Assembly: GCA_902812365.1 (NCBI GenBank)
Contig: CADDZC010000010.1
Span: 1 to 64,000 of the forward strand
Length of the DNA: 64,000 bases
From: Acidobacteriota bacterium
GTDB lineage: Bacteria > Acidobacteriota > Terriglobia > UBA7540
Direction: 5' to 3'
This document shows, piece by piece, positions 9,938-15,527 of the stretch. Positions within the stretch are counted from its first letter, which is position 1. Each line of letters starts with the position of its first letter. The translations under genes and the position numbers were made by a program. Under the pieces are notes generated by a model. That model did no database searches, was not told the DNA's origin, and saw nothing but the letters and a program-made list of their open reading frames with translations.

Positions 9938-13194
<3,257 letters not shown>

Positions 13195-13195
<1 letters not shown>

Positions 13196-13464
13196 TATAG
13201 CGCCTGGTTAAAAACTATCGCCCCAGCTATCAGCGAAGCCGTGAAGTTGGCAGAGCTCAGTTCGGGCGACGGCTCGCGGGAGTAACCTTTGGTGCTCTTT
13301 GGCACCGGCAAAGCCGCGGCATACTGGCTACCGCCGGTGACGGCACTTCTTGCTCCCGCGTCTCGTACTCCAGTTCGGCTACCTTGCTTCTGTACCTGAG
13401 CCTCGCGGGTCTTCCAGAAGCGCGCGATAGCAGCCTTGAGTTTGTGTTCTAACGGTTCGTTCAA
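13195..13464 (-). pseudogene. gutted type II restriction endonuclease remnant (PaeR7I/XhoI-like ends)
   Basis: An 89-codon frame between the methyltransferase gene and carB. Residues 8-48 (containing ARFWKTREAQ, DAGARSAVTGG) resemble what I recall of the N-terminus of PaeR7I/XhoI-type endonucleases. Residues 59-89 (YSREPSPELSSANFTASL) look like the C-terminus of the same family. Family members are about 240 residues, so roughly 150 central residues, including the catalytic PD-(D/E)xK core, would be missing, apparently through an internal deletion that kept the frame. It starts at TTG 13464; this TTG overlaps the stop of a second methyltransferase frame (TTGA). Its stop overlaps the carB ATG. 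It cannot cut DNA if this reading is right. The homology is from memory and unverified. Confidence 0.55.
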
Positions 13465-13467
13465 TCC

Positions 13468-14406
13468 TTAACCTTGCTCGATGACGACGGCTGACCGAGA
13501 AAGGAGACTATTGAATTCACTTCGAAGCCGCGCCGCTGCCAGGGCAGTGGTCCCAGTCCCCATGAAGGGATCCAACACCGTGTCGCCGACAAAGCTGAAC
13601 ATGCGAATGAGGCGTTCGGCCAGCTCGACGAGGTAAGGAGCTGGGTGTTGCTTCGTTGAGGGGCCGGGCAAGCCGGTCCAAATTTGCTCAAACCACCTTT
13701 TGTGTTCGTCGGCTGAGATAATACTGAGAATGCGAACCGCGGCGCTGGGAGCGCGATAGCCGCCCGGCTTTCGTTGCATCAAGATGAATTCAATATCATT
13801 CTTCACGATGGCATTGGGCTCATAGGGCTTGCCGAGAAAACCGCCGCCGCCATTCTCCACCTCGTAGGCGGCGTTGGCGATTTTCTGCCATATGATTGGA
13901 GCAAGATTGTCAAAACCGATTCGCCGGCAATGCTCTTGGATGGCGGCATGGAGCGGCACCACGGTGTGACGGCCCTCGTTCTTGCGCCGCGATAGGCAGA
14001 CGGCGCTGACCACGCAAATGAGCCTGCCTCCCGGCACTAGCGCGTCATAGCACTCTTGCCAGACTCGATCCAATTCAGTAAGAAAGTCTTCGTAATTAGG
14101 GATATGACCCAGTTGTCCCGCGGTATCGCGATATTCTTTAAGAGTCCAATAAGGCGGCCAGGTTACGACCAACTGCACGGATCCTGAAAGCTTCCGGCTC
14201 AGATTCCGGGCGTCGCCGTGAATTAAGACGTGCCGCGTAGGGAGCCGAGCGACGCTCCTGCGTATAACCTCCATCAGTACGCGGTCCTTGGCGCCGCGAG
14301 GGATAGCGGTTTGAAGGTCGTCCAGAGCCAGCAGTTCGGCGGGGAGGAACGCTCGAAAGTCCGGCTCGCGTGCTCCTTCGCTGGTTGTGCTTGCCGCCGT
14401 GTTCAT
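13468..14406 (-). CDS. beta-class DNA methyltransferase (N4-cytosine/N6-adenine type), probably impaired
   Basis: A 312-residue site-specific DNA methyltransferase in beta-class order: catalytic motif IV near the N-terminus, AdoMet motif DPFMGTGTT near residues 279-287. Motif IV reads TWPPYW (residues 82-87). Active enzymes have Ser, Asp or Asn before PPY, and here TGG (14160-14158) replaces what would be TCG, so catalysis is doubtful. Family members continue about 30 residues past the AdoMet motif; this one stops early, and the -1-type alternative frame (ending at 13461 with a TTGA overlap to the next gene) looks like the original end, implying a frameshift. The start at ATG 14406 overlaps the carA stop as ATGA and has GGAAAGG just upstream. 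Base composition is visibly less GC-rich than carA and carB, indicating transfer. Confidence 0.78.
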
Positions 14407-15527
14407 CCTTTCCACTCTTCGATCATCTTCACAAAATGTCCGAACAGGTACCCTGCGTCGTGCGGACCGGGCGACGCCTCAGGATGATACTGGACGCTGA
14501 AGAGGGGCATGGTTTTGTGCCGCAACCCTTCGAGCGTCTGATCATTCAAGTTCATGTGGGTCAGGGCGACTTCGCTAAGCTTCAGAGAGTCGGGATCAAC
14601 GGCGAAACCGTGGTTCTGCGCCGTGATTTCCACTTTTTGAGTTTCCAGGTTCAGCACCGGATGATTGGCCCCGTGGTGGCCGAATTTCAGCTTGTAAGTC
14701 TTCCCGCCGAGCGCCCGGCCGATGATCTGATGGCCGAGGCAAATGCCGAAAATGGGAACGCGTCCCATCAGACTCTGGACGGCCCTCACGGCGTAGCCCA
14801 GAGGCTCGGGATCGCCGGGACCGTTGGAAAGAAACACGCCGTCGGGATGAAGGTCGAGCACATCGTCGGTCGAGGTTCGGGCGGGCACGACGGTGACGCC
14901 GCATCCTGCGTCCACCAGCCTGCGCAAAATGTTGTGTTTGATGCCGTAATCATAGGCCACGACATGAAAGCGCGGCGGAGGCGACGGGGCGGCCTCGGTG
15001 CGGTACACGTCGGGCGACGGCTCGGACCAGCGATAACGGAAGGCCGTGGATACTTGGCTCGCCAGGTCCCGTCCTACCATGCTCGGAGAAGCCTTGGCCT
15101 TGGCCACTAAACGCTCCTCGTCCAAGTCGATGCTCGACAGCACGCCTCGCATGGCGCCGTGGCGCCGCAGGTGGAGAACGAGGGCGCGCGTGTCGATCTG
15201 ATCAATGGCGGGCACTCCGAATTCTGCGAGGAACGCCGACGTGTCTTCCTCTGAGCGCCAACTGCTCGCCAACTGGCTGAGTTCCCTGACCACCAGGCCC
15301 TCGGCAAACGGTCGGATAGACTCGCTGTCAACAGGGTTAGTGCCGTAATTTCCGATATGAGGGTAGGTGAGGACAACGATTTGGCCCGCGTAGGAAGGGT
15401 CGGTGAGGATTTCCTGATAGCCGGAAAGAGAAGTGTTGAAAACGACCTCGCCAAAGCGTTCGGCCGGCGCGCCCTGCGCCCGCCCGCGAAACACGCGACC
15501 GTCTTCTAAGGCGAGGATCGCCTGCAT
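14403..15527 (-). CDS. carA: carbamoyl-phosphate synthase small subunit (glutaminase)
   Basis: CarA hydrolyses glutamine and channels ammonia to CarB. The 374-residue length is normal. The N-terminal CPSase domain ([35 protein letters not shown]) is followed by a class I glutamine amidotransferase domain with nucleophile Cys in FGICLGHQ, the [16 protein letters not shown] loop, and His in [13 protein letters not shown]. It starts at ATG 15527 behind GGGAG. Its last codon overlaps the methyltransferase start (ATGA), so the two are translationally coupled. A 210-base leader with competing hairpins separates it from lepB upstream. Confidence 0.97.

Follow-up and report, generated by a model that had tools for sequence, protein, structure and literature searches.

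A decaying XhoI-family restriction-modification pair between carA and carB of an Acidobacteriota bacterium, in a probable exchange slot for small gene cassettes

The stretch of DNA analysed here, hereafter the window, comprises positions 1 to 64,000 of contig CADDZC010000010.1 (assembly GCA_902812365.1) from an Acidobacteriota bacterium. Its minus strand carries, in this order, carA, a DNA methyltransferase gene (M), the remnant of a restriction endonuclease gene (R) and carB. What very probably lies between the two carbamoyl-phosphate synthase genes is a decaying XhoI-family Type II restriction-modification (RM) cassette, lodged in a carA-carB exchange slot where small cassettes are swapped by homologous recombination in the car flanks. 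At the level of sequence comparison, the identity of the pair, its decay, the recurrence of the same gene order elsewhere, a tract in common with another genome (G001) that runs from carA into R, and the unrelated cassettes in the same slot of relatives are established. On this reading an RM system has lived, and is dying, within an operon for core biosynthesis, and the locus hints that small selfish genes, often mobile or toxin-like, have an exchange slot in Acidobacteriota. Throughout, G000 is the genome of the window, and other G and L numbers denote the genomes and loci compared. The features on which the argument turns, all on the minus strand, are the following.

14403..15527, minus strand: carA, carbamoyl-phosphate synthase small subunit, intact, 374 amino acids (PF00988/PF00117)
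14403..14406, minus strand: ATGA, 4-bp overlap of the carA stop and the M start
13468..14406, minus strand: M, DNA methyltransferase of the N6_N4_Mtase family in decay, 312 codons free of frameshifts, ending at its own stop TAA (13468-13470)
14158..14160, minus strand: M residue 83, Trp; Ser in 89/90 homologues of the alignment
14002..14007, minus strand: M residues 134-135, Ser-Ala; Gly-Asp in 90/90 homologues of the alignment
13532..13540, minus strand: scar in M where 63 bp were lost in frame, from the alignment with G001
13195..13464, minus strand: R remnant, XhoI-family endonuclease, head and tail without the catalytic core, 89 of ~241 codons, frame open
13193..13197, minus strand: TAATG, 1-bp overlap of the R stop and the carB start
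9938..13195, minus strand: carB, carbamoyl-phosphate synthase large subunit, intact by Pfam, 1085 amino acids
13330..14573, minus strand: recombinant tract common to the window and G001, 94-100% identity against ~55-85% on either side, low end approximate

The methyltransferase of the window matches PF01555 (1.1e-28) and the PADLOC type II methyltransferases (best 1.9e-53), and the closest solved sequence to its G001 counterpart is a putative modification methylase, PDB 2zie (1.1e-100). Its decay was gauged over 108 alignment columns, each at least 97% conserved in 90 M homologues, from which the window M departs at eight and the G001 M at none. The eight comprise Ser83 to Trp in the PPY motif (residue 83 opens the SPPY catalytic motif IV), Gly134-Asp135 to Ser-Ala, Pro259, Phe302, and three columns that fall in a gap. 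The loss of 63 bp, situated at a 9-bp sequence that is present twice in G001, has removed 21 codons following the FMGTGT motif, beside the cofactor motif. Between the window and G001, 19 codons of M carry a silent difference and 19 a residue change, and no other M of this family was found in G000 at E 1e-25. M is read here as a damaged copy in decay, and the impression of a decaying pair in an earlier note on this DNA is borne out by the departures and lost codons of M together with the lost core of R. The idea of a frameshifted M, having a “second frame” as its continuation, was considered and ruled out, the M frame following that of G001 to its own stop. An open reading frame (ORF) at 13461-13691 does overlap R as TTGA, the junction that the earlier note had described, but it lies in a frame other than that of M, matches no family and is neither part nor continuation of M.

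Of the endonuclease, the window retains the first ~45 and the last ~29 residues, in pieces that align to the G001 R at ~13464-13330 (head) and ~13290-13204 (tail), and some 460 alignment columns, the core included, are missing (461 gap columns); a TTG three bases past the M stop could serve as its start. Taken alone, the remnant gives one weak PADLOC match (REase_II, 3.4e-5, residues 6-48), no Pfam family above cut-off, and no PF04555 match with the limit set at E 10, the HMMER filters still applying. Its assignment to the XhoI family follows instead from the alignment with G001 and with intact homologues, one of which matches PF04555 (1.9e-79, and 5.1e-55 for the G001 R piece). A PDB search with the intact R returned nothing better than a match at 0.24 to a polymerase. 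In the intact homologues, the PF04555 endonuclease adjoins a PF01555 methyltransferase, and the window pair is interpreted as the remnant of an XhoI-family Type II RM system, not as a working member. The R of G001 is broken by other lesions, namely a stop and a frame change, beside an open M; since the lesions differ, R was lost separately in the two genomes. The presence of two RM-type frames between carA and carB, as claimed in the earlier note, is therefore confirmed by the sequence, PF01555, PADLOC and the G001 alignment, and its ATGA and TAATG junctions stand where it had placed them. The lower GC fraction of the pair was likewise reproduced, at 0.576 for M and 0.578 for R against 0.607 for carA and 0.634 for carB. 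A second full-length carA was not found in G000, the other two matches being partial at 32-33%.

Exchange is seen most directly in the comparison with G001, which belongs to another genus than the window and holds the M-R pair in the same carA-carB position. In bins of 100 bp, those at gene ends being left out, identity is 63-79% along carA, 97-100% over its last ~170 bp and 94-99% from M into the beginning of R, then 68% in the tail of R and 55-85% in carB, with a perfect run of 191 bp from 14573 inwards. This jump within carA implies that an exchanged tract starts inside carA, and its two versions now differ by ~5%. Among 231 family pairs, the window and G001 show the largest tail-minus-body difference in carA identity (0.994 against 0.702), the next being 0.164, and the horizontal exchange suspected in the earlier note is upheld by this tract. 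The tail of R is older, which suggests that R already stood in the slot before the tract was exchanged.

The same arrangement recurs well beyond these two genomes. In the family of the window, M was detected at E 1e-25 in 15 of 39 genomes (window included), beside carA only in the window and G001, and an open R adjoins M in at least four of the 14 other family M loci (L082-L085). A further M homologue away from carAB (L087, in G051) has three internal TGA codons and one TAG, and is another decaying family copy. A scan of 84,980 species genomes gave at least 80 M loci in total, the best 80 of which were taken; an R homologue is present at 72 of these, and 12 lie between carA and carB. One of the 12 is that of G001 (L204, Acidobacteria bacterium isolate 21); the 11 others all come from contigs labelled as Acidobacteriota. 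When the M start codons nearest the carA stop are chosen, the carA/M overlap measures 4 bp in 11/11 of these other carriers. At the R/carB junction, the genes share 1 bp in three (L205-L207), abut in four (L208-L211) and are 6-51 bp apart in four. R is open in 10 of the 11, while that of L208 is interrupted by a single internal stop. Among 399 sampled genomes of the class, M was found at E 1e-140 in 31, and carA and carB flank it in 8 of the 30 loci examined; judged by match values, five of these eight correspond to the window, G001, L208, L209 and L237, and G336, G395 and G125 are new, the last being an exception to the tight overlap with ~0.6 kb between carA and M. The earlier note had called such a coupled insertion unusual, but it is no peculiarity of this genome; since the other carriers have the same carA/M overlap and seven of the 11 a tight R/carB junction, the coupled junctions probably came with the cassette. 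That note had named relatives all carrying an intact pair in this place as a case against its reading, which describes 10 of the 11 distant carriers but not the window's family: there, besides the window, the pair occurs in G001 alone, with a broken R.

The junction that houses the pair is itself unusually variable. Of the 39 family genomes, 23, among them the window's, have carA followed by carB on one contig; the remaining 16 have a gene missing, partial or off the contig, or, in G005, another gene after carA. The gap exceeds 200 bp in 16 of the 23 and is at most 111 bp in seven, down to a 17-bp overlap. The pairs pheS-pheT, sucC-sucD and trpB-trpA of the same family served as controls, each search contributing its 30 best loci (L114-L203); of these 90, four broke off short of the neighbour and were discarded, leaving 86 junctions. 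Gaps above 200 bp occur in 5/29, 7/27 and 5/30 of these, respectively; these 17/86, described as gaps of 200-900 bp, show that loosely spaced operons are common in the family in general. The carAB junction nevertheless stands apart at 16/23 against 17/86 above 200 bp (Fisher p 1.2e-5), 15/23 against 4/86 above 500 bp (p 1.3e-9) and 9/23 against 1/86 above 900 bp, the p values being too small because the genomes are related. Among order and class relatives outside the family, 15 show both genes, and the gap exceeds 200 bp in seven of these. Family f10 has 54 carA loci in 60 genomes, and among the best 30 of the 54, which were read, carB is visible in 27, with a gap above 200 bp in 19 and of at most 111 bp in eight.

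The contents of these gaps are diverse. Thirteen of 20 cargo proteins exceed a Pfam cut-off, a count that is not a rate since the proteins were picked by eye and some came from outside the family (HicA, HicB, PDDEXK_3, HTH_3 and one Y1_Tnp); the families are DUF559, ParE (two), Y1_Tnp (three), Uma2 (two), HicA, HicB, PDDEXK_3, HTH_3 and GIY-YIG. Set against the 90 control loci, the carAB cargo gave a single match (39%). Within one genus, G381 (read as L209, with an identical M) has an RM cassette of 1725 bp where G086 has an unrelated one of 746 bp, and their identity is 91-100% at the carA end and 93-94% at the carB start against 80-85% in mid-carA and 77-86% deeper in carB. The cassette ends of three loci, searched for repeats of at least 14 nt, showed none, shorter target duplications not having been looked for; in two of the three there are imperfect matches of 14-15 nt within carA and carB, which seem to be chance ones.

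Several further observations concern the slot. Among the f10 loci L315-L343, some unrelated cargo frames can start, like the M of L209, at a GTG overlapping the stop of carA (GGGTGA), and several gaps have ORFs that, by eye, resemble RAYT transposases or GIY-YIG nucleases. Also by eye, carA is followed in L035 (G005) and L057 (G033) by ORFs resembling a dihydroorotase and a PilT-type ATPase, not by carB. A coiled-coil cargo protein appears to recur in the gaps of G009 (L033), G006 (L040), G023 (L043) and G050 (L109), and one with a single N-terminal membrane-like stretch in those of G009, G023, G048 (L108), G049 (L110) and G013 (L046), as judged in the same way; two of these recurring proteins were scanned and had no Pfam match above cut-off.

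How the pair came to occupy the same place in distant carriers is best approached through the gene trees, from which G336, G395, G125 and G426 were left out. A rather unlikely account is that of an ancient vertical operon, in which the common ancestor of the two families already had carA-M-R-carB and most lines lost or replaced it, the window being a late loss. It accords with the conserved junction overlaps and with the tree of M and R combined (window and G001 represented by M only), in which a branch with support of 89/96 separates the 13 carAB-embedded pairs from the rest. The tree of M alone places the carAB-embedded copies in three places, but it was rejected as proof of several independent captures, a single clade from M not being excluded (p 0.437, 43-row subset) and the combined tree uniting them. 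Against vertical descent, the tree of carA and carB gathers the 11 other carriers into one clade (100/99) far from the window and G001, which sit in their own family, whereas the M and R tree puts the window and G001 inside those carriers; moreover, M stands beside carA in only these two of the 39 family genomes. Holding the 11 together without the window and G001, as strict vertical descent would have it, gives p 0.037 in the approximately unbiased (AU) test, and a looser version with seven rows (L205-L211) gives 0.175, for which reason transfer of the cassette across families is likely but not proven. As to a possible origin of the carA tail in another family, the tail of the window is 0.68-0.76 identical to those of the 11 carriers and, much alike, 0.67-0.78 to those of family members.

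The exchange-slot interpretation has evidence of its own to contend with. By the two AU values, an old cassette passed on vertically and lost many times is not firmly rejected; only one clear recombinant tract was seen in the window's family; and the RM cassette is sparse, in 2 of 23 loci of that family and, for f10, in 2 of the 30 carA loci examined. Between G381 and G086, identity is again 90-95% over the first 400 bp of carA, and carB heads are better conserved than carB bodies in general, so that this pair is suggestive only, its high identity not being confined to the flanks. A Y1 transposase lies inside several other cassettes, and recombination in the flanks thus need not be the sole route of entry. 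Lastly, the assemblies are drafts, and most of the named ones are metagenome-assembled genomes (MAGs). This last point lends something to the notion of a misjoin or a chimera of related MAGs, as do the sharp identity changes that bound the tract; with ~5% differences inside the tract, different lesions in the window and G001, and the same gene order in 11 other contigs among the best 80 M loci, such an artefact, including the assembly join that the earlier note had raised as a cause of the spacing, is extremely improbable.

Why the remnant persists has invited two other accounts. The losses in M and R both left the frames open, so that translation can still run from carA to carB, and the remnant might be kept for carrying ribosomes across; yet two in-frame losses would arise by chance about 1 time in 9, the R frame of G001 is interrupted by a stop and a shift, and seven of 23 family genomes have carA and carB at most 111 bp apart with no remnant between them, all of which makes the account improbable. 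This is the proposal of the earlier note, that the pair may survive because its removal would uncouple carB; it is not supported, given those same seven genomes and the genus that has the RM cassette in one species and an unrelated cassette in another. Domestication of M as an orphan methyltransferase with a host role would suit G001, whose M is open and free of departures despite a broken R, but the window M is without conserved catalytic-motif residues and 21 codons, and such a role is very doubtful here.

The exchange-slot interpretation most likely translates into the following course of events, of which the tract and the lesions are observed. Whole small cassettes would be exchanged at the carA-carB slot through homologous recombination in the flanking car genes, working like a minimal mobile element; the occupant would be read through from carA, with M and R translated by re-initiation from the carA stop. 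R appears to have died first, in two lines, since it is broken in the window and G001 by different lesions, and M would now be drifting, as no endonuclease is left to guard against. A wider generalisation, possible though we hold it only tentatively, is that the carA-carB junction is a general docking slot in Acidobacteriota, where the end of carA provides an overlapping start codon, through which an incoming cassette can become translationally coupled to a core operon, and where cassettes, whole RM systems included, pass from carAB to carAB across families. If so, an RM or toxin pair would ride on genes that the cell cannot easily lose. Movement of cassettes by core-flank recombination, and a longer cassette life through coupling to a core operon, both become testable.

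In the open-access literature, consulted mostly at the level of listings and passages, no description was found of an RM system between carA and carB, nor of an exchange slot of this kind in Acidobacteriota, and the portions of PMC6245113 that were seen hold nothing on carA-carB spacing. PaeR7I belongs to PF04555, and the window pair resembles the XhoI/PaeR7I-type Type II systems (PF04555 with an N6_N4 methyltransferase) in that the endonuclease gene adjoins the methyltransferase gene in its intact homologues. The window has the cognate PF01555 methyltransferase and no PF04555 endonuclease domain, and it differs from those systems in lying inside carAB, coupled and gutted. At the very same junction, a carA-carB intergenic region of variable length was reportedly described in Neisseria by Lawson et al. 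in 1995. RM units have been reviewed as mobile (PMC3874152), and movement of a PaeR7I RM system has been shown in E. coli (PMC3031569). The closest known counterpart of the slot is the minimal mobile element of Neisseria (Saunders and Snyder 2002, as described in PMC3898611), a region between two conserved genes whose contents are exchanged through the flanks. The carA-carB slot likewise lies between two conserved genes (23/39 family genomes and 27/30 f10 loci) and holds different whole-gene cassettes in different genomes, as in G381 and G086; on recombination solely through the flanks, it offers one clear tract and one suggestive pair, beside several other cassettes with a Y1 transposase. Unlike the Neisseria element, its flanks are the two subunit genes of one enzyme, its RM cassette is coupled to them by overlapping codons, its hosts are Acidobacteriota, and its contents differ between species, genera and families rather than between strains.
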